Shown here piece after piece: positions 1,373-51,994 of a stretch of 64,000 bases of DNA. Source of the DNA: Protoeuglena noctilucae. Taxonomy: Eukaryota; Chlorophyta; Pedinophyceae; Marsupiomonadales; Marsupiomonadaceae. The stretch covers positions 930,001-994,000 of the forward strand of contig OY253671.1 of NCBI GenBank assembly GCA_958009085.1. The letters are read 5' to 3'. A program made the position numbers and the translations under genes. Every line of letters begins with the position of its first letter. Within the stretch, counting starts at the first letter, position 1. The notes beneath the pieces were generated by a model, which saw only the letters and a program-made list of their open reading frames with translations, did no database searches and had not been told where the DNA came from.

Positions 1373-1843
1373 GGCTTCCCCCAGCAAGCGCCCGTCCCCA
1401 TCGGTGCCCAGGCCACGCTCGGGGATGGCGCGACGCAGCCCTGGTGCGCACAGCTCCCGCTTGCGTCCCCGGAAATGACCGCACGATCAACCACTGCGCG
1501 CCGGAGGGATCCGCGCAAGCTTGATTTCGGCGTCAGCTGCTGTCAGACTTCCAGCTCGCCCTCGAAAGCAGGCAGAGGGCGCCTGACGCTCCCATAGATT
1601 CGCTGTCGTCGGTCACAGCCCGCGAGAAATCCCCGCCGCTGCGAATCTCGCTTCGCTGCCCGCTCGACACCGCGCGTGTGCATCGCTCGAGCGGCAAGCC
1701 CGCGTACCTGCCGCCGGCTGTTGTGAGCTCCCTGCAGTGCTTTTGATCAGCACAGCCCGAGCTGCACCGCAATTGCCTCGGAGGAGCGGGGCCCGGGGGG
1801 AGCACGGGCCGCAGTGTCCGGCTCGCGGCCGCCGGAGCAGACG
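1373..1843. promoter_or_regulatory. divergent intergenic region
   Basis: This 471-nt gap lies between the divergent secreted-protein and SLC10A7-like start codons and must hold both 5' UTRs and promoters. I see no clear TATA box, repeat or RNA gene. The AT content rises slightly around 1500-1760. Confidence 0.4.
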
Positions 1844-3794
1844 ATGGAGAAGGAGAAGACCCAGTTAGTCTACAGAAGCTTAGATGTGGACCATGGGCAC
1901 CACGCGACGCACCAGCCGGGGTTCTGGGAGGTGGTCCGGGACTTCTTCCCGGCGGGAGACGACCTGAAGGATCGCAAGTGGTGGAAGACCAAGCTGATCA
2001 AGCACTTCCTCCCACTCGGTCTCATCATCGCCCTCGTATGGGGGCTGGCGTGGTGAGCGCGCGCCCCACGAAGTTCCTCGTCCCGCGGCCCTTGGCGCAC
2101 CTGCGGCTGGCGCGCCGCGCGGCCGAAACTCGATGGCCTTCGCCGGCGCGGGAGGTGGAAGCCGACGCGCGTTTTCGCCTCCGCAGGCCCACGCCCGGCG
2201 CCTTCCTGGGCGGCCTGAAGAGCGGGAGCTGGGAAATTATCTCGACGATCAACATCTCGCTCATCTTCTTCCTGCAAGGCGTTAGCCTCAAGACGGACGA
2301 GATGAAAGCGGCGCTGAAAGCGGTCAAGGCGCGTGGCTGCCGCGGAGGCCCGCCGCTGCCCGAGAGAGGGCGTGCCTCACATTGCGTCCGGGCCCCTCCC
2401 GCCCGCCCGCAGGCGCTTTCGTACGCGGTCGTCGCCATCCTCGGCATCACGGCGTGCTACGGCTTCATCCTCTTCAACATCCCCTTCCGACCCGACGAGT
2501 TCCGCTACGGTGCTGCGTTATTCTGCGTGGTGCCCACCACGCTCACGTCAGGCGTCCTCCTGGCGAGCGGGCGCCCGCGCCAGGCTTCTCCCGCCTCTGT
2601 CTGCGCGCGACGCAGTGCCATCGACCGTCTCCCTGCCCCTGCACCGCAGGTGACCCAGGCTGGGGGCAACAGCACGCTCGCGCTGATGCTGACGGCCGGC
2701 ACCAACATCCTCGGGGTGGTGACGAGCCCCTTCTTCCTCAAGGCCGTCATCTCGTCCAGGGGCGTCGCCGCCAACGCCACCCTCAACCCCGTCAACCTCC
2801 TCGTCAAGCTCCTCATCACGGTCCTCGCGCCCTGCATGGCGGGCAAGGTGCTCCGGGAGCTGTCCAAGGCCGTCCAGGAGCTGGTGAAGAAGCACAAGAC
2901 CGCCGTCAGCCTCACCACGAACTTCCTCCTCATCATGATCGTCTGGATGCAAGTCTCCAAGGTGAGAACTGGGAGGGAGGACCACGGCGGGCATCGCAAC
3001 TCGCCCCGGTGGCTTGCGAGAGTCTGTCCTGACGCTGACAGGAGATCTGATTAATTGGACAGTTGGCCTTCAATGATCTATTGCCCATGGCAACCCGCCC
3101 CTGCAGGCCCAGCCCAAGTTCCTCTCCATCCCCGGCGCCCACATCGTTGAAGCCATCGCGGCCATGGTGGGGCTCCATCTGGCCTACCTCACGCAAAACT
3201 CGATCTGCGCGCGCCTCCTCAAGCTCCCCAAGGTGACTTGCCCAGCACTGCCCACTCTATCCCCGTGCGCGACACCCCTGCGTGCGATGGGGCATGGTGG
3301 CCGATAATCGACGCGCGCTCGCAACCCTTTCCATCGGCCCGCTCGCCGCAGGAGGAGTACCGCTGCGTCGTGATCCTGACGTCGCAAAAGACCCTGCCCG
3401 TGTCCATCACCATCATGTCCTTCCTCCCCGCCAGCCTGGGGCAGAAGGGTCTCATGACCATCCCCGCCATCGTCGGCCACCTCAGCCAGCTCCTCATCGA
3501 CTCTGCCGTCGTCTCCTACTGGGTGCACCAGGCGAGTTGGGTCTCAATCGACGAGCGGGGCGATCGGCCCAAGTCACATGAGCGAAGTGCCCATACCAAG
3601 AGATGGGACCTCTTTGTTTGTCGCAGGATGAGAAGGCATCAGAGGACGGCACGCATGCCGCGTCCGATGAGGAGGATGCGAGGTTACCGGACGGCCACGC
3701 ATCCTCGTCGCAAGACGTGCAGCACGACGACCCGTTGCCGCAAGGCCTGAGGCACCACGAGCCCACCCGGTCCAGCCACCCTTCGCGCGACTAG
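1844..3794 (+). CDS. SLC10A7/RCH1-type sodium-bile-acid-symporter-like membrane protein
   Basis: Seven exons (1844-2052, 2187-2322, 2413-2562, 2650-2961, 3107-3232, 3352-3531, 3627-3794) give about 426 residues. The protein is nearly all membrane helices. It carries SLC10A7-family signatures: ISLIFFLQGVSLKT near residue 90, VPTTLTSGVLL followed after the splice by QAGGNSTLALML near residue 165, and LTSQKTLPVSITI near residue 310. The family (yeast Rch1, human SLC10A7) sits in plasma or secretory membranes and restrains calcium entry; transport of bile acids is not expected. The hydrophilic tail is rich in Asp, Ser and His. The start is the first ATG in frame and precedes a charged cytosolic segment. 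Introns 3 and 6 have GC donors (GCGAGC, GCGAGT). The donor of intron 2 is ambiguous (GT at 2323 or GC at 2329, both in phase). Confidence 0.88.
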
Positions 3795-3977
3795 CACACC
3801 CACGTTCCCCTCACTGCGGCCCCTCTCCTCTCCATCACAGCAGCAAGGCGTGGTCATGGAGAGGTTTTTCCTTCGCATTCACACGGACCAGCATTCGCTG
3901 GGAATACTCGGTTTGAACCAGACCATACGCACATCGTCTCGGTTGCCCACTGCAGCAGCCATGGGGCAGCCGCTGCG

Positions 3978-6821
3978 CTAGGGTCGGCTGGTGGCTGCGG
4001 ATGCCGCCGCTTTCACACGACGATCCATGAGCTCCTCGAGCCCCTCAGACGCACTCGTGCGCAGCACGTCCTCGTGTGCGAGCGCTGCGCCCATCACACC
4101 GCCTCCCCCAGAACCCCCTGCAGCCCCTGCCGTGGCCCCCGCAGCGTCCTCCGCAGGTCCCTCTTGGGGAGCATCTGACTCGCCCATCCCCTCCACATCC
4201 TCGTCGCTTGCATAGTCCTCCTCCGCCTCACTGCGACCCTCGTCACCCGCCTCTGCCTCCTCTTGCCCCTCTCGCTCAGCGTACCCACGCCCGTCATGCA
4301 CGCCGACGGCGTCGTCGCCTTTGCCCACCAATGCCGGCCCTCGCGTGTCGCCCTGGGGCTGAGACTGGCCCTGAGACCGGCCCCGAGAACCCAGGAGGTA
4401 GCCGCTGCTGCCGTCGTGCACCCGCCCCTCCTTGACCAGCGCCCCGGAGCTCTGCCTCGCCCGGCCCCACGTGCCGCTCCCATCGGCAAACGAAGCCTCC
4501 GAGGGGGCATGGGCGCCCGGGCTCGCCCGGCCCCGGCCCCCCAGGCTGCCCTCGCTGCTCCGGCGGTCCATGCGTTCCCGGAAGGAGGGCCCCTGCAGGG
4601 CCGACCCCTGCCTGGCCCGCCACCCCGCCCCTGGCTCTTCGTCGTAGTCCCCGTACTCCTCCTCCGCCCCCGCCGCCCCATCATCGTCGTTCTGGAGCAC
4701 CACGCCCTCGTCCAGGCCACCGCTGCGGTCCCGGGCATTGTCCTCGCCCCGGCTGCGGCGCACGTACTCCAGTTGGGCAAAGGAGGGGGCCGGCGGAGGC
4801 ACGGCGGGAGGCCCTGCGTGGGGACGAGGCACTGGAGCTGGTCACAATGGCCTGGCTGTGAAGAGGGCCCATGAAAAGGTGCGCTGTCGGCTGCATACGA
4901 GGGAACTCTCACCAGGCGTATAGGCGCCCTCATCGCCGTCCCCCATGCCTGGCAGGCGGGGCGAGATGGCAGGGTCGGGTGCCAGGTCCCCCGACACCTC
5001 GCCCCTCACGACATGGGTCGTGTAAGGGGACTCGGAGGACTGCCGCGTGAGGCTGGGACCGGGCAGCAGGCCCCAGTTGGGGTCCTCAAGGCCATGCAGC
5101 CCGCGGGACTTGCCGCGGGAGAACTGCGGACAAGACCAGGGTTCTACCGCATGACATGCAACCAGGCGGGGCCGGTTTGGGACGGGAGCCAACGCAACGC
5201 TCGTGCGAGCTCAGGCAACAATGCTCCCTCGCCTTTGCCGCCGTGATGTCTGTCTCCTCGTCGTCGACCTGGCTGCCCTCCCCGTACGACGCGGACGTGC
5301 CGTTGGCGCCGAAGATGGCACGCACCTCGTTGGTGCGCTGCGAGCGCTTGCGGCGCTCGACGCCGATCTCTGCCTTCCTCTGCGGGGCATCAAAGGGCAG
5401 GTGGGCGACGTGCAGCGGGCCACGGCGCATCTCCGTAACGCAGTGCCGCGAGCAGGGATGCTGCCCGCACCTGGGCCTCGCGCTTGTTCTTGTCTTCCTC
5501 CTCCATGCTCGCCAAGAGCTCGCGCTGCTTGTCGGCGTCGATGGCCGGCCGGAAGACCTCGCGCACCACCTGCCCGTACGCCTGTCGCCGCTTGATGCGG
5601 GCCAGCTTCTCCTGCCTCTCGCGCTCCTCCTCCTCCTGCCTCCGCCGGGCCTCGTCCTCCAGCCTCTTGGCGAACTTGCTCTTGTACTGCACCCCTATGG
5701 ACGCGACGCTCCCCGAGACGGACGTCTGCGCGGCCCGCGCCTTCTCCTCTCGCTCCTTCTCACGCTGCACCTTCTGCTCGGCCTTGCGCAGCAGATACTG
5801 CTGCTCGTGCGCCTGCGTGAGTCACCAAAAGACCGATGAGTCGAGACCCTACTCCTGGCAGCATGCAGACATCTGCAACGCCTGTGGGCCGTGGTCAGCG
5901 AGCCCAGCCACGCTGCCGCGAGGCGCGTCGCACCTGCACCATCTCCCACGAGCGGACCCGCTCCTCGAAGCGGCTGGGGCTCGTCTTGCTGTGGCCGTCA
6001 CTGTCTCGCGCCCGACGCTCCGCTGCGCGCTGCTTGATCCGCCACTCCATCAGCCGCTTGCGGTCTTCCGCGTTGCCCGCCAGCTGCCGCTCCCTCTCGG
6101 CCTTGCGCTCCTCGATCTGGGCCATGCGCTGCGCCATCTCCTCCCTCCGCCGCGCGTCTCTCTCAGACGCCTTCTCTCGCAGACGGTTCTCCCTCGCAGC
6201 GAGCGCCATCTCCAGCTGCTGCAGCCGACTCTGCTCCGCCACCTCCCGCTCGGCCCGACGCTTGTCCATCTCGAGCCTCAGCGCCGCGTTACGGCGCACC
6301 GCCGTCCGGTGGTCAAAGCTCGACGCCCAGTTCGCTGCTGCAGAGGCCAGGGAGCCCCCGCCGCGCCTGACCGCCTCGCCGTCGACGTCAAGGACGGACC
6401 GGACCGGCACAACGAACCCACCCGGCGAGTTTGACGAGCCGGCCGGGGACGTCTCCGGTGGCACGATGTGCCGGACGGGTCTGAGTCGCACAAAGACTGT
6501 GAGGAATGCGATGGAGCGCGGGCTAGAGGACGCATGGCGACGCGCAGGCGCAACAGGTGTGGCCTCACCGCACGTCGCTGATGACCGCCCGCCTCGGCGC
6601 ACCCTTGGTGCCATTCTTGACGGGAGGGAGGTCTTTGAGCTCCTTTTTCGCTGCTGGTTCCGCGTACGAACTGCAGCGGCGGCCAGGTTGCAACGCGGGT
6701 TTGGCAAGGTCTCGCGCAGGGCAAGGGTCTCCTGGTGGCTCCGCGGCCGGACTGCTCACCTCGTGACAACCACGCCGTCATAGGATGCCTCCTGTGACAT
6801 TGTGGGGATTTCCGGAGCCAT
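3978..6821 (-). CDS. coiled-coil protein of unknown function
   Basis: Seven exons (6821-6760, 6670-6569, 6480-5934, 5812-5471, 5379-5233, 5123-4913, 4813-3978) join in phase for about 748 residues. I chose the ATG at 6821 because the first two small exons read as ordinary protein (YDGVVVT, then KKELKDLPPVKNG) and splice cleanly; a single long open frame through here from 6614 is probably intron read-through. Residues about 100-380 are a charged Arg/Glu/Ala-rich coiled coil (for example LEDEARRRQEEEERERQEK). The C-terminal 280 residues are Gly/Ser/Glu-rich and look disordered. Such architecture is common in cytoskeletal and ciliary proteins, but I do not recognise the family and assign no function. 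Intron 5 has a GC donor (5232). Confidence 0.6.
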
Positions 6822-7555
6822 TTTATGCTGACTTCGGGGCCCTAAAATGCGGAAACAGTGAAGGTCATGAGCCGCGGAACCCGCCCAGCCACTGCGTCCA
6901 GACAACTGCACTGCGTGTAAAGACAAGCAAGTAGGTAAGAAGAACGGGCTTACATTCCACTCCGCTGGGCTGGAAAGATCTGTTAGGGCTGCCTGCATGC
7001 ACGAGACGGTGCATGCGTCCCAGGACGTCCGGGGCGTATCCAGGGCATGCGGAACCGACCTGGAGGCTCGAGAGCTGTTGTGGTTTCGTCCGCGGCAGCT
7101 GACACACACGTGCGTGGCCTGGGGACGTGGCGCACTAGGCACGAGGTCTATGCTCGCAGAGTTCATTCAGCAAAGATGCTTAGGATATATCGGTGCAAGC
7201 AGCGGGTGCCGTGCTGCAGTTCTTGCTCGCACAGACCTGACAGGGGCGCGCGCCGTAAGTCTCAGTCTGTCGCCCGCTTCCGGTCCTGGGCCGGCGTCCC
7301 ACGCGGTATTCTTCGCACCTCAACCAAAACGAATATGCCCGCGTGCCGGCGCGCGGGAGCCTTTATCTTGCGGATGCACAGCCTGTAATGGGATGTGCGC
7401 GTGCACAATGCATGCTCGTGACAACGCATACGTAAACGGGCGGCTTAGCGAGGACGTGGTGCCTTGACAGGTGACAGCGCGCAGTGACGGGGGACTGCCA
7501 GGCTCGCGCTCAGCTCGAGAGCAAAGAGGAGGGTTGCGTGGTGCAGGTGGCCAAA
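6822..7555. promoter_or_regulatory. divergent intergenic region
   Basis: This 734-nt gap separates the start codons of the coiled-coil gene and the channel gene, so it should hold two 5' UTRs and their promoters. It is less GC-rich than the flanking exons. An open frame at 6997-7467 has no codon pattern or similarity that I can support. No RNA gene is seen. Confidence 0.35.
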
Positions 7556-10500
7556 ATGGGGCCCATGCGCGACGTCCTCAAACTGGGGACGGACGTAGCA
7601 GGAGAGGATGGCCACGATGTGGGCCTCCTGGGCCGTCAGCTCTTCCCCAACCAGCCCGAATGGCTTGCCTTTGGCAATCCGCTGACCAAAATTGCCGACG
7701 GTGGCGCCTCTACAATCATCGGAACGCTGGGAGACCCCGCTCCGGACCTGAAGACGCGCATGGCGCACAAGTGGGTGGTCGTGGCGTGCGACACGTCCTC
7801 GGACGGGCGCGTCGTCGCGGCCCTCGTAAGGTACGTCACTCTCTGCCGAAAGCTGCCGCTGCGGCTCGCGTCCTCGTCCCAGCTCACCGCCAAAGTCGCT
7901 CAATCTCTGGCAGGGAGACCGCTCCATTCCGGCCGGGAGCCTCCCTCCGCCAGCAGCTGGTCATTTGCGACTCGTGGGCCGGGTCCGCCAACCGCACGGT
8001 GCTTCTCCGCAATGAGACAGAGATATCGGGCCTCTCGCTCTCGTTCGCGGGCGACTGGTTCGTGGGCGTGATTCACAAGGGCGATCCCGAGGACGTGAAG
8101 GCCTGGAGCAGTCGGGTGAGCGCCACGGGCGAGCCCATGACATGGCTTGGTACGGAGACGTGGGGTCGTAAACACCTGCTTTGCGCCCCTTTGATTCTGT
8201 CGCAGTCGGGTGACGAGCTCGGCATGGCCATCCAGGACGCGATGGGGAGCGTGTTTGAGGAGCTGGCTAAGGAAGGCTTTGACGCCGTCGTGCACAGCGT
8301 GGCGTGGTCGCCCGTCGAGGATCGCATGGTCGTGGCGCTCCTCTGCCTGGACACCGAGGGCGTCCGGAAGATCGCCCTGGTGTCCGGTGGGTGTCTGCCC
8401 CATGCCTTGCGCCTGTCGCTGCCAGCAGCCAGCCGACAGAGCCTCTCCTCTGACGAACGCGCCCCGTCCCGTCGCAGTCGTCGTGCACCAGGCGTGGGCG
8501 CGACCGCGGGTGCGGGGCCAGGACCGCCGGGCTTCCCAGTTCGACGGAGACATGGGCAGCAACCGCGACCTCCGCCGCGATCCCCCTGGGGAGTCAGCGG
8601 CCAAGCCCGTGCGCGCCGCAACGATGCGGAGGCCCACGGCCGCCGGGGACGCGACTCCGAAGCGGAGCAAGGTCGTGCCGGAGGGCGGGGACCCCGGATG
8701 GGAGCTGGACTGGGTGCAGGAGTGCGCGGTGGTGTCGGGAGGGGAGCCGCCTCAGCCGGACGACATCGACTTCAAGGTGAGGACCGGCACATACGTCAAT
8801 GCCTGTTCCGAGTGGCACCGTGAATCGCAACGTGACGTAGCCTTGTTCTGTACACGCAGGTCCAGTTCAACGGCAAGGGCACGCTCTTGGCCACGAGCAA
8901 GGGCTCCATCATCGATGCGGCCTCGGGGGGCGAGCTCTACGACCTGGCTCTGCGTGGCCGCAACTCCATCACGTCGATCAACCACTGGCGAGAGGGCCTC
9001 ATCGCCGAGCAGGAGATCTGCTTCAGCCCTTGCGGCCGCTTCTTCTTGCAGACCGGCACGGCCGGCTACGGAGGTGACGGGGCTCTCGCTTGCGTGCGGG
9101 CTCCCTCGCGAGGCCCTTGTCGCTGCGCTGTTGACCCTGGCTCCTCCCTCCACTGTCACAGTTGCTGCCGGCACGTTCGCGCTCGTGACAGTGTGGGACC
9201 TGGAGGCCGTGGCTGGGCCGGAGAACATGGGGGCGATTCAAATCCACCATGACGACTGGCTGGTCCTGACGCGGGCGCGGGGTCGGGCGCTGGTGACGAG
9301 CAAGGGCGCCGTAATTTTGCTGGTCACGACCGACACCGGCACGCACGTGATGGTGTGGGGCATGGAGACGCTCAAGCGGCGCATCGAATTCAAGGACGTC
9401 GGGTCCACCATCCTCCCCACCAACTCCTTCCCTCTCCCGGAGCAGCCCGTGATGACGCCCGACGGCGTGCCCTGCGCCTACTTGCACCAAAACGACCAGG
9501 TGCAGGGACCATGGGAACAGGAAGCAGCGATGAATGACACGCGCGGCCTTTGCAGATGACATCTTGGCTTTACGGCCTATCTGCTTCAGATAGATGACGT
9601 CGTGACCTGTCAGCTGTGTCTGTGGTCGTGATTGGTGTCCCCTCGCATCGCCGCAGCCCGTCGTGGAGATATGGTCGCGGGACGGGAGGGCCCTCCGCAC
9701 GAGCCTGTGGCGGCTGGACTGGCTGACGGGCCTGTGGAGCAAGGTCGCGACGCGCGTGGTGGCGAGTGCATCTGGCGGCGGCTCCGACGGCGCGCAAGGC
9801 ACGGGCGAGGACAAGCCCGGCGCATCCGCGACGGAGCATTCCCTCAAAGCAAGCGCGCCTGGCGCGATTCGCAGCCGCCTCCGCCCCGAGGCGCCCACGG
9901 CGGCCGAGGCGCTCCAGATAGACCCAGAGAGGGCCCACCGCGCCATCACCCGGGTGGTCAGCGTGGGCAAGAGTCGCTTCGCGGTGTTCTGCGCCGGCGG
10001 CTCCGACCTGGGCCTCGCCTTCGTCACGAGAGGCGTGCCCCTGGTCGAGGTCTTGGGAAGGGATGCTGTCCACGCCGCCATCCTCAAGTCCACGCTCGCC
10101 ATGACGGTCCTGGCAGGTGCATGTTGCTTGAGACCTGCTCCGAGGTGCCAGCGCCGCTCTGTCTGGACATCTTGTGTTGCAGGCGGCATGCGACAGCCCC
10201 GGCACCGGCACCGCTTGCCCGCAGTGACGCTCGAGCGTCCCCCGATCGACACGCCGTCGTCGGCCAAGGTCAACAAGAAGAAGAGCCAGCCGCAGGGGCA
10301 GAGCGGACAGAGGAAGGCTCTGTTCGGGTCCCGGCGGCCCGGGCGCACTGCAGAGCGGGTGCTGCACCCTTCGGGGTCGGGGTCTGGCGACCACAGCGAG
10401 GGCGCGTCCCTGGTGAAGCAGAGCACGGCGGGGTCCTCGCTGTCGGGTCCGAGCACGATCAGCGCGCTCCACTTCCCGGGGCTGGCGCAGTCCTCGAGCA

Positions 10501-13500
10501 TCGGCCACAGCAGCGACTCGGCCGGGGCGCAGATCTACAAGATCCGCGGGAGGGACTGCGACGCCCTCCTGCGCGCCACGGGGTTCGAGGTCAGTCAAAG
10601 TCATCGGGGCTGTCATGAGGGCGTGCGAAGTGACTGGGGTGGTTACTGAGGCGTGCAAAGTCAGTCACTAAGCGCATCGCTTCCCGGTCGTCACGTCCGA
10701 GCTATCCAATATACTGAGCCTTCCACACCTCGCTTCCCCCCGCAGGTGGTCGTGGTGGACCTGCTGATGCGCAGCAAGCGCACGATCTTCTGCGTCGCTG
10801 ACCTGGACCCGGCAGCCGAGGCCATCCTGGCCACGGAGCCCTCCAGCGGCGCAGGGAAGGCCGGGGCGGGCAAGGCGGACGCCGGGAAGGCCAGCCGGGA
10901 GCCCAGCGCCTGGAATACGACGAGTGGGGAGACGGCAGCTGGCTCCTCGGCATCCACGTCGACTGCCCCTGCGTCCCAAGGGCCCACCGCCCGGGCGGCC
11001 CCCTCGAACGCGGCCGGGCCCTACAAGTGAGCGCGCGCGAGCGCAGCACGTCTGCTCGAACGGGGCACAATGACAGCGTCTCCTTGCGCTTATAATAGCC
11101 ACCTGCCATGGGTGCTTGGGGGCCGCTTCAAATGCCCGCCTCGTCTCTGCGATGCGCGCAGCTTCCCGTACGTTCCCTACACGCTCGTGCCCGACGGCAA
11201 GTTCGGCGCATTCAAGCCGGGTCATACCCTGGGCCGCGTCGTTGAAGTGGGCATGTCCGCGGACGCCTCGATGCTGGCCATCACCCACTGGCTGCCCCAC
11301 GTGGTCGCGGCGGGCTACGAGGACGAGGTCGTTAACCTGACCATCGAGGTGAGACAGATGGGAAGCACGGCGTACCCTAGTCAGCCCACGCACGCGATGC
11401 GCGTCCTTGCGGGCACGACACGAGAGACACCATAACTCAGCGAGCTGCCCCAAAGATGACTAATTTAATCACACATCTATTCTCCTCGCTTCCCAGACGG
11501 TCTTCGTGCGCACGGAGGACGGCGGGTACCGCCCCACGGCCAGCGGCGCCCCGGACCTGCGCCGACTGAACGTGCGGGCGTCCCAGCCCTTTGAGATCGA
11601 AGTGCAGCCGCGGAAGGGGCCGACCACGCTGTCGGGGAAGGTCTTCGACCCGGCCAAGACCCGGCTGGCCGTGTTTGGCGTCAGCAGCCTGATCCACAAC
11701 GTCGTCGACTTTGAGTCCCGGCAGGACGTCCCGTGGGTGCAGCTGCAGGTGTTCGACGTGTCAGGAGCGGCTGCGGATGTCCTCGACCTCTCCACGGGCG
11801 TTGCAGAGACAGTACCCGGGGCCACCGGCCTCAAGCGTATGCGTGCCCTGCACACACGCATACGCGCGGGCGCGTCGCACAACATATCGGCGGCCTTCAA
11901 CGTCGACTCGACCCTCCTCGTCATCGCCGGGTACGACTGGGTCGAGACGGTCAGGCGAGCGGGGCGGCGCACGGCCGCCTGGCTGCGACAGCTCCCGACG
12001 GCAGCCGCCGTCCTTTCTCTGCGTCTCTGCCAGCCAGGATTGGCATTTCGTTGATCCGCGCCGTGACGCTTCCTCATTCCCGTCCCCGCAGCCTCGACAC
12101 GTGGGCGGCGGAGCGGCGGTTCCACATCGACGCCCTCATCCTGCACCCCGTGGACCAGACCATGTGCCCCAGGGGGCTGCCCCAGGTCTTCGCCTATCGA
12201 AAGAAGGACATCACCGCTCAGATGATCGAGAGGGGCGCGCCGTGGAAGGTCCTGCCGCCGCGGACCGTCGAGGAGCGGCCCCAGGCGCTGGCGCGGGTGA
12301 CGGCTGAGTCGGGCGTCGGGTCGGTGCCAGACTCCGTGCCGGAGTCGTGCCCGCCGTCCCCGCGGAGGGATGGCGCCGGGGGCCCGGCGGAGGCGTGGCC
12401 GGACCCGGCGCTGTCGTCGCGGGCGTCCCAGGAAGACAGTGAGCCGGCGGGCGTGGCGCGTCACGCCCTGGCCGCGCCTACGGCCCTGGCCCCGGCCTTG
12501 CACGCCCGCATGGGCCCGCGGCTCACGTGGGCGGAGAGCGAGGACGCCGACGAGGAAAGGGTCGCCGGTGAGAATCGAAGACCCGACCTGCGCCGCCTTG
12601 GAGGGCGTGACTGCTGAGTTGACGACAGATTGATGCCGAGTATCCACCCATGCATGGCTTGCTGCTGGGCAACCTGGACGGCATGCCTTGACTGGGATGC
12701 GCGTGTGCTCATCGGTGCTGAGATGCCACCTGTCGCAGGGCGGGGCGATGGGGAGAGAGCGGCTCGACTGACGGACCCCCCAGTGATGGGGAGCAGGCAA
12801 GGCGACGAGGCGACAGGGCAGGGAGGCAAGTCTTCTGAGGGCCAGAGGACTGGGCTTAGAGAGCAGAGCAATGACGCCGAAGATCCATCAACGGGACCTC
12901 AGCGTACCGCCACTGTCGTCCCCAACGGCGGTGCCGGTGTCCCCACCGCCGACCACGAGGGCCGCCAGGCGTCGCGTGTGCCCTCTCGGCAGGCGTCTGC
13001 AACAGCTGGGCCACTTGCCAAGGGGCCTCCTGGTCCAGCCCCAATCGTTCGTCGCGACAGAGGCGCGTCGGGCACCCTCCCGCCACTGCCGGGCTCCCTC
13101 AGCGACCGCGCTCTGCTGTTAGACGGTGCCATCGACTCGGCGGGCCCCATGGCTGAGTCTGCTCTCCCTGCGCTCTCTGCGCGTGAGCCCTCAGGCACAG
13201 TGACCCCGTCGGACCGGCGTGGGGCGCTCGGCTCGGCTGGGGAGTCGCTGCTGGGCGACAGGGGGGGCCCCGAGGACGCAGAAGAGTACCTGGGGAGCAC
13301 GTGGGTGGACTCCGACGGGGCCGGGAGCAAGGCCGGCTCGACGCGGGGCCGCAACGCCGGGGCACGGCCGCGGGAGGGGACCGCGCTGTCCGTGTCAATG
13401 TCGGTCGCGCCGCGCCGCACGGCGCACCACTCGGCGCCGGGCATTGCGAACGGCCGGGGCTCGGCGGTGGCTGACGGAGACGGCGCGGGCGCAGCGGGGG

Positions 13501-16500
13501 CGCGCGCGCAGCCGCAGGGCGACCCTGCAGGCGACGGGCGGTCGCCGCAGCCGCGCACTGCGGACGCGCAACAAGGCGCGGAGCCTGCCAGGGGCCCCGG
13601 AGGCGAGGCTCCCCAGGATCACGTGGCCCGCGCGGGCACTGCGGTGAAGTGGCGGGGCGTGGACGGCGAGGAGGACCGGTCAAGGGAGGTGGCCACGTGG
13701 CTGGTGTACCAGATCGACCCAGCGACGGGGACGGCGACGTTCGTGGCCCCGGCGCCCTCGGCGTCTTCGGAGGACTTTCTGCGGGTGAGGCAGGGGCGGG
13801 GGTAACGAGCATGACTGGGGGGGTACAGATGAGCGAGACGGGAACAGCGGACGCGCACTGGCGCTGGGTAGGCTCTCTGGCTCTCTGGCAGAGCTGAGGT
13901 CTCTTTACACTCCTTGGTGCAACTAATCACAATGCCGTGACATGCCTGGGACTAACTGCACGCAGATGCAAGGCAGGGGAGATGCCGTTTTCCAGGCGCG
14001 GGCGCTGGCGTCCGAGCGGGCACCTCGCCCTCACGTGGAAGTGCCTCCCGTGGGCGTCCAGGCACGTGGGCCACTGTCTTTGCCTCCCCACTGCCTTTGT
14101 CACCTCGCTGCCTGACACCTCGCTGTGCCTGCCACGCAGCACCTTGCGTGCAACAAGCACTCTCTGATCGTCTGCTCCTCATTCCCTGTCACCCGTGTGC
14201 TCGTAGGTGCTGTCTTCCAATTCGGTGGCAGTGTATCGGGTTAAAAGCACCAACTACACCATCCGGCTGGGGGACAACAACCACAACGACCCGGACATAA
14301 GGTGGGCGGCAGCAGCTGCGGCTGCTGTTACACACACGCAGCGAGTCGCCCTGACTTGCACCGGTAGACCTCCGCTCATGGCCTCGCCACGACTGGTCGC
14401 ATAGGTGATTGACCCTGGACCCTCAAAGCCCCCTAGTGTCTCTTTCTCCACAGGGACGTCACGTCTCGCAATTCCTTCGCCATCCTGACCCGGGCCGCGC
14501 CCCAGGACTACTCGGGATGGGACGCGGAGGAGGTCGTGGGCAACATTGAGCTCCCCTTCAACCGCCTTACGTCCCACGCCTTTCCCCCGGTCCTCACCTA
14601 TGACGGCGTGGCGCCCAGCCGCACGACCGTCGACTGGCTCATCCTGCAGGGCGGGTCAGGTGAGTGCAACATGCCAGAGTTAGGGTGCGCTAGTCCCATT
14701 CGCTGCAGCGCTAGCGGAGGAGTGGAATGATGGGTGCAAGTTGCGAGGCGCGTACGTGCTGGTGACGCGTTTTGTCACACCTGGGTCGTCATTCCATCCT
14801 CGCAGGCGCCATTGCCATCTACTCCCATGCCATCGTGCTCGTCAGCGCGGCGTGCGCGGTGGGGCACTTCATGCCGGGCGCGTGGGTGGACGCCACGCAA
14901 TGGATGTACCGCATTTGGGACGATCAGAGGATGAAGCTCACCGCCAGGCTGGGCCGCCAGGTGAGATGCGCTCGTCAAGACCACTACCGTTTGCGCAATG
15001 CGCCCACCTGTCCATAGCAGCAGCCGTGTCCACCGCAACCCCATAGACTGCGACCAGCTCCCACCGTGAGCCCCTCGTGCTTGCTGCAACACCCTCATGA
15101 TACACTGCCCACCATAATTCTCGACCCCTCGCCCCGTCTTGCAGTGGAACAAGCTCTTCCAGCGATCCTTCCTCATTCTGCTGAACCGCACGCGGCGCGC
15201 GGCGCTGCAGGGGCTCTTCTACTACGCCCCGGAGATGCTCCTGGCCCGCAGCACATGCGGGGCACCCTTCGTCTCGCGGGTCATGGAGTACACGAGAGAG
15301 GTGCGAGATTCCTCAACGGCGACGCGGGAATCCTTATCGGTGCAGTCTGCATCGCGCGAGCCGCAGCCGCGCACCTAAGCGGGCATTGGCCCTTCGTCAT
15401 GCACCCGCAGGCGGTGGACGTCTTTGACCCTTACGAGCTCGACCCGAAGCGGCGCTTCCGCGTCGCGCAACCGACGCTCATCCTGCTAAAAGAGATCTTC
15501 GAGGGCCTGCAGCTGTGGAAGAAGTTCATGCACAAGCGCCTCAAGCTCATGCCGGGCGCGGGGTGGAAGGCCCTCGTGGTCGACTCCATGTCGCCCCTGT
15601 GAGTGCGCGCGGTGCCATGGCAACGCTCCGTCGATGCAAGGAACCCATTGCTCTTATCACTCTACCTGCTTCTGTCATTCGTAATCACTCCATCTCTCCA
15701 TCTTTCCATTGTTCCCATCCTTCGTATCGCCCCCACCTCTCCCGATCAATCCATCGCTCTGATCGCTCTCGCCGCTGCTCTCCGCAGGGCTTGCGTCGAC
15801 AACTTGCTGGAGGGCATGGGCGCGGAGAATGCGCTGCAGCTGGCGCAGTGCCTGGTCCGGTGCATGGAGCAGCGCATCCTGGTGGACGACGGCAGCATGC
15901 ACCGCACGCTGCAGCGGGTGATGCACACGCTCCTCCGGGACCCCACCGACACGGTCCTGCGCTACCTGGACATGCTGGTCGTCAAGAGGCCCGAGACGGT
16001 GCCCGCCAGCGCCCTGATGAAGGACCTCAACCTGGCCACGCGCGCCGAACAGAACACCAGGGTCACGCTCGAGAGCTACACGAACGTGATGACGCCCCTG
16101 ACGCAGCCCATGGTCATTCCCGTCCAGGGCAAGACGCCCTCGGACAGGGACCACCGCGTCGGCATCGAGATTCCCCTGCACCGGCGCCTGTGGCTGGCCC
16201 TCAAGCTTATCGCGCCCATCATGGCCTACGACCCTCAGCGGGGAGAGACGCGGCTCCGGAGGGCGCTGTGCTCCAAGTCGAGGGCCCTCCGCATCATCTT
16301 CGACCCCATGGAGTTCCGGAGGCTCCTGGCATCAGGTGAGGGTGACGTGGATGTTGCTGTGACGGTGCGATGATGGTGCTGTGATGGTGGTGCTGGACGG
16401 TGCTGTGATTGTGTGAGGGTGGCGCGGACAGTGCTACGATACGGCACCGCCCCTTGTGAGTGCATGAACCCCCCAGCATTGCCCTTCTCAGTGCGTCGCT

Positions 16501-18590
16501 AACCTAACCCTGCAGGATTACACCTCTGTCCCTTCGATGGCCGCAGAGACGGACTGGTCGATGGATGACCTGATCGTGTTCGAGCAGGCGGCCAAGGGCC
16601 ACGCAGCCCACCGCTCCTCCTGGGGCCGGCAGACGGTCCAGGTCCTGCAGTGCGTCATATCGGACATCGTAGCACCCACCCACGACCACAAGCACCCCTC
16701 CTGGTTCCAGGTGAGCAGGCCAGGTGGCAGAGCAGTAGCAGTATCACAACCACCGCGCAGTCTCTCTGCAGCACTGCGCGTTGCCTGAGCCCTGCCTTGG
16801 ATGCAACACCTCCCCTCTCGCCACGCGCATGACGCCCGCCCATCACGCACCCCCGCTGTCGCTCACAGGAGATCAACCGCTCGGGCACCCACATCGAGGT
16901 CTACGACATGCCCATCGTGCAGTTCCTCATCCAGGCCAAGTGGGAGGCGTACGGAGCGCGCATGGCCTTCTACGAGGGTGCACTGCACATCGTGATGGTG
17001 GCTGCGTACATGACCTACGGCGGCATGCTCCCCACGGCCATCTACGTGCCTGCCCCAGGTGCGCCAGCGCTTCGTGGCGTTTGCGTGCACCTGACACAGC
17101 GCCCGGCCACACCGGCCGCGGCACTGAAGCAGCCCTCATAGCCATGGCGACTGCCTGGGATGCCGTCGGCTCCGTTGTGCCCCAGTGCCCCCGCCGCGAC
17201 CCCACCGCAGCCGCCACTCCGCATAGCGCCTCTACCCTCCTCCCATCACCACCGCATCGCCCTCGCCCGCGCAGGCCAGGCGGAGCCCTCCCTGAGCACC
17301 CGCTCCGGCAAGTCGTCGGCCGCGACGGCCTTCATCGCGTGTGTCCTGCTGATCGGCGGCCGCCTCCTCCGGCGCAAGGTCCGCCAGTTCAAATGGTTCG
17401 GCGCATCGCGACTCATCCGCTCCCGCTGGGACATCAACGACCTCCTCGTCCTCTCCCTCCTCATCGCCACCGTCGTCCTGCACTTCCAGTTCCTCCTCCA
17501 GCCGTCCCTGAAGGCCGCTCGCGGCCTCAGCGCCGTCGTGGCCCTGGAGATCCTCACCCTGTGGTTCGGCCTGCTCCAGTACGGCCTCAGCATGGACCGC
17601 ACCGGGCCCCTCATCCGAATGATCTTCGAGATCACCATCAACACCCGCTTCTTCATCCTCGTCATCGCCGGCATGATCGCCGGGTTCTCATTCGCCTTCT
17701 ACCTCCTCTTCGCCGAGACCGCCGCCCAGTCACCGAGGGGCAGTGACGTCGGGGACAACTTCGCCACCCTGCCCCGCTCCCTGGTCACCGTCGTGTCCAT
17801 GGCCGTGGGCGGCTTCGACCAGCTCATTTTCTGGGAGACGCCCCTTGCGGCCCTTGCTGTCGTCCTCTTCATCGCCTTCATCGCCCTGGTGTTGATCCTC
17901 CTACTCAACCTCCTCATCGCCATCATGTCCGACACCTACGACAAGGTGAAGCAGTCCGAGCGACTCCACCTCCTCCGCGAGCGCGCCATGCTCATCGAAG
18001 AGCTCGAGGCCTCCATGGGCCGCTGCCAGCGCCAGGACCTCGCAAGACGCCTCCCGCCCAACCTGGCGGTGTTCGTGCCATCCACGGGGCCCCAGCGGAA
18101 GCGCGACAACGACGAGAGGCTCGCGGCCATCGAGGAAATGGTGGGCAAGATCTGGCGGCGCCTGCGACGCATCGAGCGGGGCGCGGCGGGGGCGGCGGGC
18201 CACGGGGGTGGCGGCCATGAGGGCGAGGGTGACGGTGAGGGAGAGGGCGAGGAGGACGACGGGGACGAGGAGGGCCAGCCGGGGCGCACGCTGGCGGCGG
18301 AGCTGGACCCGGCGGTGGTCAGCCAGCTGCTGATGCTGTACAACATGGTGCGAGGCGGAGGGGCCAGCGGGGGCGGGGGCGGGGGCGTGGGCCACGCAGC
18401 GGCGGGGATCGCCCACGCGGCCCCTCACCCTCGCCCCGCCAAGTCGACGGTGGAAGGGTCCGGGGGCCACGCTCACGGCCACGGGCATACCGGGTGGGAG
18501 CGCCTGGCCCATGTGCACCACGTCAGCAGCGGCGAGTCCGGCGCGCACGCTGCGCAGGGACCGTCGCATGGGCAGGCACCGCCCTCGTGA
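7556..18590 (+). CDS. giant WD-like beta-propeller / TRP-type cation channel
   Basis: Twenty-two exons splice in consistent phase to 2605 residues: 7556-7830, 7914-8115, 8206-8386, 8478-8776, 8860-9073, 9162-9499, 9657-10116, 10183-10589, 10746-11026, 11162-11348, 11497-11930, 12092-12567, 12739-13784, 14207-14301, 14454-14659, 14806-14960, 15145-15300, 15411-15598, 15788-16335, 16547-16710, 16869-17058, 17275-18590. Residues 1 to about 1250 contain degenerate propeller blades (SVAWSPVEDRMVVAL, ICFSPCGRFFL, VTVWDLEAV). Exon 13 encodes about 350 disordered residues. A helical linker leads to the channel. S1 is near residue 2145 (ALHIVMVAAYMTYGG), followed by S2-S5, a pore loop (LVTVVSMAVGGFDQLIF) and S6 ending in LLNLLIAIMSDTYDKV, a TRPV/TRPML-like hallmark. 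The C-terminus is Gly/His-rich. It is probably a non-selective or Ca2+ channel in a cell membrane. All 21 introns are GT-AG. The start ATG at 7556 sits in aaaATGg; an upstream exon cannot be excluded. Confidence 0.82.
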
Positions 18591-19042
18591 CGGCGCTGTG
18601 ATGAGTTGCGAGGGGAGTGCGAAGCGCGCTGGTCTCTCTTTTCCACCCTCCCTGCATGTGCATGTCGTCACCCAACCCTTGGGACACAGCAACGCGCGCC
18701 CCAGCTGTGCAGCGCGATATCTCTCGTGATTTGTATGCGATTAGACAAACAGCAGGACGTTGTTGGCTGTATGCGGCTCTCTGTGCCAGCCTTGCTCGTG
18801 ACATGACAACGTGATGCAGTGACCTCTTCACCCCTCGTTTACTTGTTCCCATGTTACCGTGAATGAACGTTGCAGCCATGACTGAATGCACGCATGTGCT
18901 CTGCCCTGGCCTGCCCCAGCCCTACCAACGCTTGAACGACACGACCCTTTCAACCACGACGAGCGCGTATGCAGGGCCCAGGCAAGCCACGAACGCGGCC
19001 TGCATCGCCCCATCACTACCGCTGCATCGTCACGACTCCTCG
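18591..19042. other. convergent intergenic region
   Basis: This 452-nt gap between the convergent 3' ends of the channel gene and the GPATCH4-like gene must contain both 3' UTRs. No ORF, RNA gene or repeat is supported. Confidence 0.4.
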
Positions 19043-21204
19043 TCACTTCTCTCTCCGCTTCTTGTTCTTCTTCCGCCCTTCACCGTCACCGGCACCGCCT
19101 GACCCCTCCTCAGCCTTGGCCTCCTTGCCCCGCTCCCGCTTCCCTCCTTTCGCCCTCTTCTCTTTCTTCTCTTTCTTGTCTTTCCGCTTTGGAGATGACT
19201 CGTCCCCACCCACCGCCCGCTCGCCCTCCACGCCCTCACGCTTGCGGCCACCCGACCCCTTCCCGGCGCCCCTACCGTCCTTCTCCACAACCACGGCCGC
19301 CAGGCTGTCCTGGCTGCCACTGGGTGCCTCGCCAGCCTGCACGGGTACAATGCTTGTGTGCCAATCGCAAAGCCCTATCTGCAGCCCATCGCAGCATCCG
19401 CTACTGCCAGCCTTCTCGCCCATGCACCCCACACCGAATCACATCCCAGCATCCGCACGCCCCAGCACCCGCCCACGCTCACCTCGCCCTCCGCTCCGTC
19501 TTCGTCCCCAAACGTGCGCTTGCTTCCCGCAAAGTCCTTGCCCAGCGTCGTCGGTCGCTCGGCGTGGCTCGCGCCCAGCCCCATCTTTCCCTCCTTCTTC
19601 CCGCGTGCATGGTTGTGCGCAAACATGAAGACCCGCTCTTGGTCGTCCTCCGTGAAGCCCTTCTTCGATTCCTGCGAACAATAATCAGTATCAATACTCA
19701 TACACCTTCCCTTCCTGCGTCGAACATTGCGAAGCTGCACCCTCAACGCCCTCAGCACAAAGCACGTCGCAAAGCCTCGCTGCGGCCGGCTCACCAGGAT
19801 CTCGTCTCGCGCGGAGCCCACGAACCCGACGCTGACGAAGACCTTGCGGCCCCACCACTGCGGGTCAGCCTCGGGCGTCGTGGGCGGCAGGGTGCCCTCG
19901 TACGCGACGCGCTTGACCGTGACCGTCACGCGCTGCCGCCCGCCACCGCCGCCCGCAGCCTCCCCACCGTCACCGCCCTCCGTGCGCCCTGTGAAGGCGC
20001 CCACGATCCCCGCGAACCGCCCCCAGTGCGAGTGAGCGCCCCCGGTCCCCCCGTCCTCTGCGGGTGCGGGTGCCGCGTCCGCATCCACCTCGTCTGCCGC
20101 AGCATCTTTCGCCTTCTTGCTACGCTTCTTGGACTTGCGATCCTTCCGGCTGTCCCCGGCCCCGTCCTCCGCCCCTCCCTCCTCTCGCCCCGGCCGTCCT
20201 TTGGGACCCTCGTCCACCGCTCGCGACTTCGATTCCTTCGACCTCTCCTTTTTCTTCGCCTTCTTCTCCTTCTTGGACTTTGACGTCTCCCCTGACGCGG
20301 CCCCCTGCCCCGCCTGCGTGCAATGTACCACCATGCGGTCCCTCTGCGTCAGTTCGGCCCCGCCCTGCCTTGTACCTCCGCGCTGCCGCGGCCGCGTCAC
20401 TCACCCCGTCCGCTTCCACGGGACTCAGTCCCAGCTTGGCCCTCGCCTCCCGAGCCATCTGCTCCTCTTGCTCCCTGCACGCAAGGCGTGGCCCACACTC
20501 ACATGCCCGTCGCTGACCCCTTTGCGCGGTCCGCGCCCGCAGAAAACGCGCCAGCCAGGTGTCCATCGTCGCCCCGCACCTGATACGGGCCATCTTGCCC
20601 TCCCTGCCGCCCCATCTGCCCCACTTCTCCTGCCCCAGCTCGTTTAGGATGCGCAGCTCCTCCCGCGATGCAGACGCCGCCAGGGTCCCGTCGCGGTGGC
20701 GCGCGGCGCCCGCCGACGGCGCAGAGCTTTCGTCGCTATCCGAGCTCGACGAATCTGCGGGAACAATGTCGCGAAGTGTCACAAATCCAATCGCACGTGC
20801 TGCAAACTCGCCCCGCCGCCGCCGCAACGGCCGCCGTGGCACGCGGGCACCTCCTCCGTCTTCGCGATTATGCACCGCAGATATCTTGGCAGCGATGGAG
20901 TTGAACGCGCCCTCCCACCACTTGGAGTCCCAACGGTACCCCGTGGCGCCGCCAATGCCGAGGTTGTCCTCCTTCTTCTTCACGCGGATGTGCTCCGTCA
21001 TCCCGTCCTCGTTCTTTCCGAGGCCCTTCCCGTCGGACCAGCCCATCTGCGAAACCAAGCGGGTGGGTTCGGCCGCCGGCAGGAAGACGCGTGGGCTGGC
21101 GAGCCAGGCCCGGCGGTCACCTTCTGCATCAGCCGCTTGCCATAGCCACTGTAGTGCTGCCGCACATGGCCGTTGCCCTCCACGAACCCCGGTGGCAGCT
21201 TCAT
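19043..21204 (-). CDS. GPATCH4: G-patch domain protein, GPATCH4-like
   Basis: Six exons (21204-21121, 21046-20580, 20474-20405, 20313-19795, 19671-19483, 19336-19043) give 540 residues. The G-patch lies at residues about 20-75 and includes MGWSDGKGLGKNEDGM. It is followed by WDSKWWEGAFNSIAAKI, matching the DxWWxxxFN segment that marks GPATCH4. Further on, KKGFTEDDQERVFMFAHN resembles a second conserved GPATCH4 patch. The middle and C-terminus are long Lys/Arg/Glu tracts (ending KNKKRREK), typical of nucleolar proteins. G-patch proteins usually bind and activate DEAH-box RNA helicases, and GPATCH4 acts in ribosome biogenesis and RNA processing; that role is inferred from the family. All introns are GT-AG. 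Confidence 0.82.
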
Positions 21205-22043: not shown

Positions 22044-24211
22044 ATGATTGCCGCAGACTGCGGACCCGCAAGCACCTCCGGCGCGGCTCATACCCACGGT
22101 CAGTATATGCCGTTTTTCGTCACTCTCGGGTCCCACGCGTATCTCGTCAAGTCCTCCGTGAGTTCCCTGGACGAGCTCGAGAACTTGTACATCGGCGCGT
22201 TCCACATGGGGAGTTGGCGCCGCTACCTCAAGCGGCGGACCAAGGACGGCTTCCCGATCCGCCCGGCCTTGTTCGCCGTGTTCGTGGACGGCTTGCCGGG
22301 GGTGCCCACGGTGGGGGGACCGCTGGACGAGCCGTGCGGGGAGTGGCGGCAGCTCCAACACATAAGCGAGCTGCACGAGGGGTGCGTGGTGACGCCCATG
22401 CACCTCGCCTGGCGCGCCATCGCGAGGGTCAGGTGTGTGGCCGCGCTCGTGGGCACTCCAGACTGGTGGCACTCAAGACTGGTGGGCGTGCTGGCCATAC
22501 CTTGTCTGGCTCGTGCAGCCCTGCAACCGTGCTGCTGCGCCCCTCTGCAGCATCGAGCGGGGGAAGGACGCCCGGCGGCCGTGTCATCACATCCGCGGCC
22601 CCCAGTCCAGCTTGGAGAGACTGACGCAAAACTTGCGCATCTTCCTCAACGAGCCCAACTCGTCGTTCCTGGCGCGCACGTGGTCCCAGCTGGTGCTGGC
22701 CGCCATCCTCGTCTCGTCCTTCAGCTTCGTCATCAGCACCCTCCCGCAGTATTACTCCGGGTCAGGTGACTACGCTGAGCGGGGCGCATGCATGTCCACA
22801 CTGCGCGATGACGAACACAGCATGCTGAGTCCCAGCGGGCGTCCGTGCGTCTGCAGTGGGTTGCTCCAACTCCGCCTTCTCTTACATCGAAGTCACGTGC
22901 ATCGCCTTCTTCACCCTGGAGTATGCGCTGAGGATCCTGGTGTCCCCCAACCCCGCCATGTTTGTCATACAGCCCATGAACCTGATCGACCTGGCCGCGG
23001 TAAGGCATGGCTCTGGCTCGCTCTGGGCAGCCAGTCTTGCGCCGTGTCGGACAGGGCAGCCACGGAACGCGTCGGCTCCGTCGCCGCCTCAGATCCTGCC
23101 CTTTTACATCACCATCGGCCTGCCCTGCAACTCCGGCGTCCCCGGCCTTCAGTTCCTGCGTATCCTGCGTTTGATGCGCGTCTTCCGCCTCTTCCGCGTC
23201 TCCCGGGGCACCCTGACCATCCTGACCGAGACCATCGTGCAGTCGGCGCACCCCATCTGGATCCTCATATTCATGCTCAGCATGCTCGTGGCCGTCGCGG
23301 GGTCCATCACGTGGTACACGGAGGCCACGGATTTCGACGAGGTCGCCGAGCAGTGGCTGCGGCAGAACGGTGAGCTGCAGTGTTGCAGAAGGGGCCACGC
23401 CACGTGCGCCGCTCCGCCAGCGACGCACGCCCCGCTCGTGCCTGCAGGCTACCGCTGCCCTGCCGAGTGCCCGAGCGACCCGCGGGAGTTCCTGAATGGG
23501 ATGTGGAGCGACTGCACTGCCCCTGGAGACACGGTCACCCTGATCCTCGGCACCAAGGTGTCGAGCAGCTGCGAGACAAACATGGAGCCGTCGCCCTTCA
23601 ACTCCATCCTCCAGTCCCTGGTGAGGCAGTGCGGGCTGATTGCGCTACTCTCGGTCATCTTGGGAAGTCATGCCTGAGATGTGAGCGAGGGGGGAAGCGC
23701 CGCCCTTGCAGTGGTGGGCGCTCGTGACGTGCACGACGGTGGGGTACGGGGACATCGTGCCAGTCACGCCCCTCGGGAAGTTCTTCGGGTCGCTCACGAT
23801 GCTCACGGGCCTCCTGGTCATCTCGCTGCCCGTATCAGGCAAGTCCCGTGGTGCTCCCGCGGCGGAGGCTGTGACACGGCGGTAGTTCTCGCGGCACAAA
23901 GCGACTCCGCTGCCCCTCTGCAGTGGTGGGAACTCGATTCATGGAACTGTACACCAAGCAGGGGGGCCACACCACCAAGGCCCTGCGCAACTTGGAGATG
24001 GAGATGGAGCCGGATGAGCAGTGGCTCCCGCGACGGCCGGGATCCGTCGGGCGGTCCAGGTGAGAGCCAGGTGGTCCGGCGCAGAGGACGTGCCTGGAAG
24101 GAGTGTTCTCGCATCGACGCGGCCCCCTCACGCTCCCTGGGCTGCAGCTGCACGAGCGACAACTTGTCGGTCTGCGAGGAGAGGCTCGCCCGGCGCACCG
24201 CGAAGTACTGA
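22044..24211 (+). CDS. voltage-gated potassium channel (Kv-type, six transmembrane)
   Basis: Eight exons (22044-22432, 22551-22765, 22857-22999, 23093-23369, 23448-23620, 23712-23838, 23924-24059, 24148-24211) give 507 residues. S1 is in exon 2 ([19 protein letters not shown]), S2-S3 in exon 3, and S4 near residue 270 reads [16 protein letters not shown], with an Arg every third position. The selectivity filter at residues 408-413 is TVGYGD, so it should be K+-selective. S6 ends in [12 protein letters not shown], with the PxV bend of Kv channels. The 160-residue N-terminus is not a recognisable BTB/T1 domain, and no cyclic-nucleotide-binding domain follows S6. That favours an animal/protist-type Kv over the plant AKT/KAT type. 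The loop between S5 and the filter is long and Cys-containing. Intron 6 has a perfect GC donor (CAG/GCAAGT), required to restore the S6 motif. The last short exon is less certain; without it the frame stops just after 24059. Confidence 0.87.
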
Positions 24212-27944: not shown

Positions 27945-27972
27945 TGGACGAGAAAGGACTGTGCCAAAGCAG

Positions 27973-51800: not shown

Positions 51801-51884
51801 AAGCAATGCACGAGATCCGAAAACCTGTCTGCAGCTATCGCGCAGAAACTGGCAATTTGCCGCCAGTGTTTCGAAGTCGCGCAT
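48877..51884 (-). CDS. prolyl oligopeptidase (S9A serine peptidase)
   Basis: Six exons (51884-51454, 51375-50710, 50600-50294, 50197-50122, 50030-49151, 49069-48877) give 850 residues. The fold is an N-terminal seven-blade propeller followed by an alpha/beta-hydrolase. The catalytic triad is visible: Ser in EGGSNGGLLVAAC, Asp in TADHDDRVVPSH and His in RAGHGAGKPT. Other family marks are DPYRWLEDPD, YFAMYNSGLQNQ, LYGYGGFNVS and LRGGGEYG. It cleaves after proline in peptides of roughly 30 residues or less. Typical members have about 730 residues; the extra 120 at the N-terminus are basic and Ser/Ala-rich, so either an organelle presequence or an unspliced 5' region. The ATG at 51884 is simply the first in frame. 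Intron 3 has a GC donor (50293). Confidence 0.9.
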
Positions 51885-51994
51885 CGGTGAAACAGTGCCG
51901 AGGTGATCCAGAATTGTTGTGTCGGTGTTCACGAGCGCATCCTGACGATCCATCGGCGAACCTGGCAATCACTGCGCACAGACCAGCCCCTGCA
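51885..51994. promoter_or_regulatory. compact bidirectional promoter between prolyl oligopeptidase and HCAR
   Basis: Only 110 nt separate the ATG of the prolyl oligopeptidase (minus) and the ATG of HCAR (plus) in my models. Both 5' UTRs and both promoters must fit here unless transcripts overlap. No TATA box is seen. The spacing depends on the two start choices being right. Confidence 0.45.

Follow-up and report, generated by a model that had tools for sequence, protein, structure and literature searches.

In animals, transient receptor potential (TRP) channels are main sensors of heat, touch and chemical stimuli, and much of the coupling is attributed to their cytosolic domains. One coupling element of TRPVs is the pre-S1 helix, which animal TRPVs combine with N-terminal ankyrin repeats and a tryptophan in the TRP helix. 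TRPs close to TRPV are already known from green algae, namely CsTRP2 of Coccomyxa subellipsoidea (PMC9242649) and Chlamydomonas TRP11, which is called a TRPV-subfamily member and is linked to flagella (PMC8318260), together with a tabulated Volvox protein that has WD40 and Ion_trans domains (PMC3407069). Chlamydomonas TRP1 (PDB 6pw4), an algal TRP of 901 aa, has ankyrin and elbow domains (PMC6744473) and is described as sister to TRPM/TRPS (PMC9242649). Chlamydomonas ADF1/TRP15 is a large, flagella-linked TRP and the proposed Ca2+ entry route in acid-induced deflagellation (PMC5068960). Here, we describe a locus at 7556-18590 on the forward strand of a 64,000-nt window of Protoeuglena noctilucae contig OY253671.1 (the window is the whole stretch of DNA analysed, and all positions are window coordinates). 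The locus is best explained as a single gene for a TRPV-like cation channel subunit of ~2460-2605 residues with a WD40-like N-terminus, in which a propeller would serve docking or gating, and we give this reading a probability of about two in three.

The splicing of the gene was modeled by dynamic programming from codon log-odds and simple splice-site scores, with one gene forced from the ATG at 7556 to the TGA at 18588-18590. The resulting model had 22 exons, 21 GT-AG introns and 2463 aa. A 22-exon model of 2605 residues, proposed by an earlier sequence-only reading of this DNA, was reproduced exactly and with no internal stop by shifting two acceptors (exon 8 to 10183 and exon 13 to 12739), and the three motifs quoted in that reading were located at 8296 (SVAWSPVEDRMVVAL), 9185 (VTVWDLEAV) and 17901 (LLNLLIAIMSDTYDKV). 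The gene model holds. Its frame was the best-scoring of six in 22 of 22 exons when codon usage was trained on the remaining exons, and none of the 21 introns was coding-like in any of the three forward frames (best score 0.02), a test that is not fully independent because the gene model itself was selected by codon score. The introns of the 2463-aa model measured 83-216 nt in 19 of 21 cases, the exceptions being intron 12 (555 nt) and intron 13 (422 nt). Intron 12 shortens to 171 nt when the exon 13 acceptor is placed at 12739; the stretch 12739-13122 is then open in phase, yet its codon score is negative (-0.21) and its GC content at third codon positions (GC3) is 0.66. The features of the gene are as follows.

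7556-18590, forward strand: complete coding region in 22 exons, giving 2463 aa (present model) or 2605 aa (earlier model)
7556-11930, forward strand: exons 1-11, residues 1-1078, WD40-like and probably a beta-propeller, from the WD40 profile and tile enrichment described below
8206-8386, forward strand: exon 3, carrying SVAWSPVEDRMVVAL at residue 190 (base 8296) and a sub-threshold Pfam WD40 match at about residues 186-203
9162-9499, forward strand: exon 6, carrying VTVWDLEAV at residue 399 (base 9185)
12092-13784, forward strand: exons 12-13, low-complexity region; exon 13 acceptor uncertain, at 12739 (CAG) or 13123 (TAG)
13785-14206, forward strand: intron 13, 422 nt with a TAG acceptor, the weak link of the gene model
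14207-14659, forward strand: exons 14-15, which lack an in-frame ATG both within them and back to the stop that precedes them
14806-16710, forward strand: exons 16-20, a linker of about 400 residues, presumed helical
16869-17058, forward strand: exon 21, S1 preceded by a TRPV-type pre-S1 helix (QFLIQAKWEAY), from phmmer alignments to Inactive and TRPV1
17275-18590, forward strand: exon 22, S2-S6 with the pore VGGFD at 17805 and S6 LLNLLIAIMSDTYDKV at 17901, a charged stretch after S6 and an acidic/His-rich tail

The encoded protein thus runs from the WD40-like region through a low-complexity stretch and the linker to the pre-S1 helix and a channel core that bears the S6 motif of TRPs. This order of parts and the TRPV-like core are shown by the sequence.

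The identity of the channel was determined from exons 21-22, which matched the Pfam families Ion_trans (E 2.1e-15) and PKD_channel (E 1.2e-5), both above cut-off and the latter over the end of the family alone (158-225 of 225). The TRP-type S6 motif (NxLIA) was present as NLLIA, and the earlier claim of a TRP channel with a TRP-type S6 is confirmed by this motif and the Ion_trans match. The extracellular S1-S2 domain of polycystins (PKD2/TRPP) was not found, the gene model having no long S1-S2 insert. The PDB was searched with the channel including pre-S1 (best 60 of 104 matches listed) and without it (best 60 of 184). Among the matches listed, the closest solved structure with pre-S1 included was Inactive (PDB 9nvn; E 1.5e-15), which we take to be a Drosophila TRPV, and the pre-S1 helix aligned as QFLIQAKWEAY here and QRLLEEKWKTF in Inactive. 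TRPV1 (8.9e-8) and Chlamydomonas TRP1 (1.1e-7) came next, followed more weakly by TRPA1 and PKD2L1. Inactive was again the top listed match without pre-S1 (E 4.3e-10). The protein shares with Inactive and the vertebrate TRPVs the pre-S1 helix, S1-S6, the S6 motif and the filter aspartate; the latter aligned with the filter aspartate of TRPV1, presumably D646.

The channel was further compared with a 12-residue TRP fingerprint, of which at least nine residues are reported to be kept in 95% of TRPs (PMC9242649). The fingerprint (Table 1 of the same paper) was scored by eye on the TRPV1 alignment, and the residue numbers are TRPV1 alignment positions. Eight of 12 residues were kept (W426, G563, F591, Y666, which is F here, N676, L678, I679 and A680). 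The counts given in that paper for published algal TRPs are 7/12 for CrTRP1 and 9/12 for CsTRP2; CsTRP2 lies near TRPV there, and the comparison with it extends to its transmembrane part as described (PMC9242649). Some of the results weigh against a TRPV assignment. The fingerprint residues F434, Y441, F638 and the TRP-helix W697 were lost, and among the matches listed without pre-S1 Chlamydomonas TRP1 (2.4e-7) ranked second, ahead of the vertebrate TRPVs. The tryptophan of the TRP-domain helix was not found after S6, where by eye on the TRPV1 alignment a leucine occupies the W697 position and a charged stretch follows. The channel is named TRPV-like, not TRPV, because both ankyrin repeats and the TRP-helix tryptophan were looked for and neither was found.

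Six transmembrane helices had been proposed. A hydropathy scan detected five segments above threshold between residues 2039 and 2236, whereas S1, in exon 21, lay below it and is placed by the TRPV alignment only. Two further segments were detected outside the channel (641-659 and 1553-1571). The S4 segment carries few positive charges when judged by eye, and gating by a stimulus, not by voltage, would therefore be expected. The C-terminal tail (~18200-18587, forward strand) is acidic and then Gly/His-rich, with 14 His among the last 203 residues, and could possibly act as a metal or pH sensing element.

To characterize the N-terminal region, a WD40 profile was made from 26 repeats of this genome, 20 from one set and six from 30 further loci; six minus-strand loci (L040-L043, L054 and L061) and 18 near-duplicates were omitted. 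On residues 1-1240 the profile gave seven scored matches (70-88, 187-195, 319-331, 372-379, 536-542, 892-911 and 1065-1082), of which only those at 70-88, 187-195 and 892-911 were positive (3.6, 2.3 and 1.3 bits). Local shuffling of the N-terminus, repeated 500 times, never yielded a best domain score or a summed score as high as those observed. When the region was cut into non-overlapping 120-residue tiles, seven of 10 N-terminal tiles scored above zero, compared with seven of 126 control tiles (p 2.4e-6), and four of 10 scored above two bits, compared with three of 126 (p 4.8e-4); for overlapping tiles the numbers above zero were 11/19 and 9/139. The controls were 103 coding-like stretches (13,940 aa) that a GC3 rule selected in 12 loci and in the window with the gene excluded; some overlap one another, some may not be genuine exons, and a prolyl oligopeptidase propeller gene lies in the portion of the window that was sampled. 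In a Pfam scan of six pieces of the protein at E≤10, WD40 (E 0.14, 13.3 bits) was the sole propeller match and the only family listed for residues 69-226. Low-complexity inserts were present at residues ~221-318, 661-770 and 801-870.

Several results stand against a WD-type propeller. Residues 1-1200 matched no Pfam family at E≤1, and no curated propeller model passed its cut-off, the WD40 match reaching 13.3 bits of the 27 needed. The whole-sequence profile score of residues 1-1240 was only 0.2 bits, and no tile scored above zero in residues 1241-1620 (0/4) or 1620-2300 (0/8). A search of the PDB with residues 1-1200 gave no convincing solved relative, the best matches being photosystem subunits (E 0.12). 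Three sub-threshold matches, to Dicer_PBD (E 0.13), DUF3742 (E 0.67) and a photosystem I subunit (E 0.12), were judged to be chance. Taken together, a WD-like domain is likely at residues ~60-1080. Of the WD-like propeller claimed by the sequence-only reading, a WD40 signal far above controls was recovered, although it stays sub-threshold and finds no convincing Pfam or PDB match. Ankyrin families were found neither at E≤1 (residues 1-1200 and 1460-2392) nor at E≤10 (six pieces), with the limit that HMMER filters may drop weak repeats; Ank_2 is abundant in the genome, with at least 188 matches. The proposal that a propeller replaces the ankyrins is partly supported: a TRPV-like channel that follows a WD40-like domain, with no ankyrin detected, fits the data, but the propeller signal remains below threshold and the proposed sensing or assembly role of the propeller is putative.

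The linker encoded by exons 16-20 had no credible Pfam family in the scans at E≤1 and E≤10, and the stretch joining the WD-like domain to the channel is, judged from its residues, not recognizably propeller. The linker had been described as helical. Chou-Fasman propensities failed to separate propeller, linker and controls, and helicity was not shown by this crude measure.

The propeller and channel exons can be joined in one continuous 22-exon model, as proposed earlier, and they probably form one mRNA, although the coding evidence does not tell one transcript from two. The locus could instead hold two adjacent genes, the first for a WD-like protein with its end at 13805 and the second for a TRPV-like channel that starts from a small 5' exon (e.g., at ATG 13829), or be split near 15602/15816; the N-terminus of the channel would then be the linker alone. 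This arrangement appears unlikely to us. It would account for the unusual length of intron 13 and its TAG acceptor, and for a stop (13803-13805) that the exon 13 frame reaches six codons beyond the donor; a candidate in-phase extra exon at 13966-14049 would divide intron 13 into two introns of ordinary length. The scoring also tells against a single gene when a boundary is allowed at zero cost: the split at 13805/13829 scored 680.8 and that at 15602/15816 scored 680.4, compared with 679.6 for one gene, despite a codon table trained on the one-gene model. However, this test is permissive because the same scoring, with wholly free boundaries, cuts the region seven times (686.9), and any realistic boundary cost therefore favors one gene. 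Two genes would also have to fit both gene ends into 422 nt, and a separate channel gene would require a tiny extra exon with almost no coding signal, since exons 14-15 contain no usable ATG. The latter argument is weakened because such a 5' exon restores the split, and exons 2 and 5 likewise contain no in-frame ATG, so that its absence is not rare. Neither of the polyadenylation signals TGTAA and AATAAA occurs on the forward strand at 7556-19200, which is uninformative on a gene boundary because none occurs downstream of the gene end either.

A further point against two genes is the Volvox carteri protein XP_002954593.1, which is entered as WD40+PKD_channel+COG2319+Ion_trans in the ATG18 column of Table 2 (autophagy) of a 2012 paper, with no comment on it in the text consulted (PMC3407069). 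This table entry confirms the earlier suggestion of a possible precedent elsewhere and, like the gene described here, unites WD40 with Ion_trans/PKD_channel in one green-algal protein. The WD40 domain is recognized in the Volvox protein but lies below the Pfam cut-off here, the two being compared by table entry and not by sequence, and the record may be a mis-annotation because other entries in the tables of that paper are odd fusions. By analogy, it counts as support for the fusion, not as proof. WD40-TRP-like proteins may also be present in fungal databases, and they were given no weight here. In the open-access literature searched, no study or functional description of a WD40-TRP channel turned up.

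The gene could also be this genome's orthologue of a TRP already named in Chlamydomonas, for example ADF1/TRP15, a reading that would be compatible with a single fused TRPV-like channel but that we regard as improbable. TRP15 is very large, with an adf1 allele at residue 1724, and the authors put it outside all metazoan TRP clades (PMC5068960). The presence of IFT46 in the genome makes cilia plausible, and the tail with 14 His in 203 residues could, speculatively, sense pH. On the other hand, TRP15 did not group with TRPV in that paper, whereas the protein described here is nearest a TRPV, and the text consulted mentions WD40 for FAP16 and in the title of a reference, not for TRP15 (PMC5068960). 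TRP15 and TRP11 are likened to the present protein by description only, and the available text on TRP11 likewise reports no WD40 domain (PMC8318260).

Least probable is a single fused channel whose N-terminal region adopts a beta-rich fold other than a WD-type propeller, which would fit the lack of a Pfam propeller family over cut-off and of a PDB relative, the irregular spacing of the WD40-like matches and a crude strand propensity of the putative propeller stretches (0.27-0.32) near the control mean (0.26), but fits poorly with WD40 as the sole Pfam family listed for residues 69-226, the strong enrichment of profile tiles over real coding controls and the failure of all 500 shuffles to reach the observed scores.

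Relatives of the TRPV-like gene were sought in the 26 contigs (26.3 Mb) of the genome, which was queried exon by exon, and no second copy or paralogue was found. Among the matches listed, the channel exon gave one match, the gene itself; the N-terminal exons gave 13, of which 12 were the gene itself and one (contig C6, E 0.07) was taken as chance; and the second-half exons gave 10, all of them the gene itself. The channel exon (262 aa) had four pattern matches on viral contigs and 36 on genome contigs, none of which was confirmed. Another PKD_channel locus lies on the same contig (C4:732762-733582) and is absent among the Ion_trans matches listed. Among the best 60 of 365 matches, the best LHC gene of the genome matched chlorophyll a/b-binding proteins, LHCII included, and the top match of the LHC search was a long LHCI chain of another kind. 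From these matches and IFT46, the genome most likely belongs to a green alga that has at least some of the ciliary machinery. Long open frames with WD40 arrays were present at C11:76784-78421, C14:805221-806891 and C15:939690-941306 (13 repeats listed each) and at C23:282763-283635 (seven). Their repeats are very alike (SVAFSPDGRWVASGSDDRTVKLW), and we take the proteins to be NACHT/HET-E-like.

Within the window, a second, unrelated channel gene is located ~3.5 kb downstream (~22100-24200, forward strand), with Ion_trans in 23093-23677 (E 1.2e-9). By eye, it has an arginine-rich S4-like stretch and a TVGYGD filter, and it is apparently a voltage-gated K+ channel. It is followed on the same strand by a pyruvate kinase gene (~25100-27950), one exon of which (26323-26515) matches the PK barrel at E 1.3e-17. 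A convergent gene with a G-patch domain (~20860-21204, reverse strand; E 6.9e-15), presumably PINX1-like, may have its tail in a Lys/Ser-rich open frame without a Pfam family (19375-20400, reverse strand). The prolyl oligopeptidase gene lies at 49144-51968 on the reverse strand (N-terminal beta-propeller Peptidase_S9_N E 1.2e-60, catalytic Peptidase_S9 E 4.5e-48), and an exon of an SBF-like transporter (E 1e-22) at 1747-3051 on the forward strand.

As a single TRPV-like channel subunit with a WD40-like N-terminus, the protein would most likely assemble with three further subunits into a channel that, given the aspartate aligned with that of the TRPV1 filter, is probably Ca2+-permeable. The long linker would tie the pre-S1/S1 region to a large beta-propeller of irregular build, just as this region is coupled to the ankyrin domain in animal TRPVs, and the pre-S1 helix would relay movements of linker and propeller in place of those of ankyrins. 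We infer that the propeller could act as a cytosolic docking or gating platform, binding a cytoskeletal, ciliary or soluble partner and thereby positioning or gating the channel, whose opening would be driven by a stimulus. By analogy, the channel might reasonably be supposed to work in cilia, because a site of action in or close to flagella is reported or proposed for Chlamydomonas TRP11, PKD2 and ADF1/TRP15 (PMC8318260, PMC5068960).

The domain combination has a tabulated precedent in Volvox, and the protein is a candidate for Ca2+ entry in a lineage where such channels have been little characterized. By retaining the pre-S1 coupling helix while carrying another cytosolic module, an algal TRPV-like channel of this type would amount to a domain swap made by nature. 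We suggest tentatively, and at less than even odds, that an unrecognized class of TRPV-like channels exists in green algae, with a large beta-propeller in the position of the animal ankyrin repeats linking the pore to a partner that is cytoskeletal, ciliary or soluble. If this is true, TRPV-type pre-S1 gating would be older than the ankyrin sensor and independent of it.

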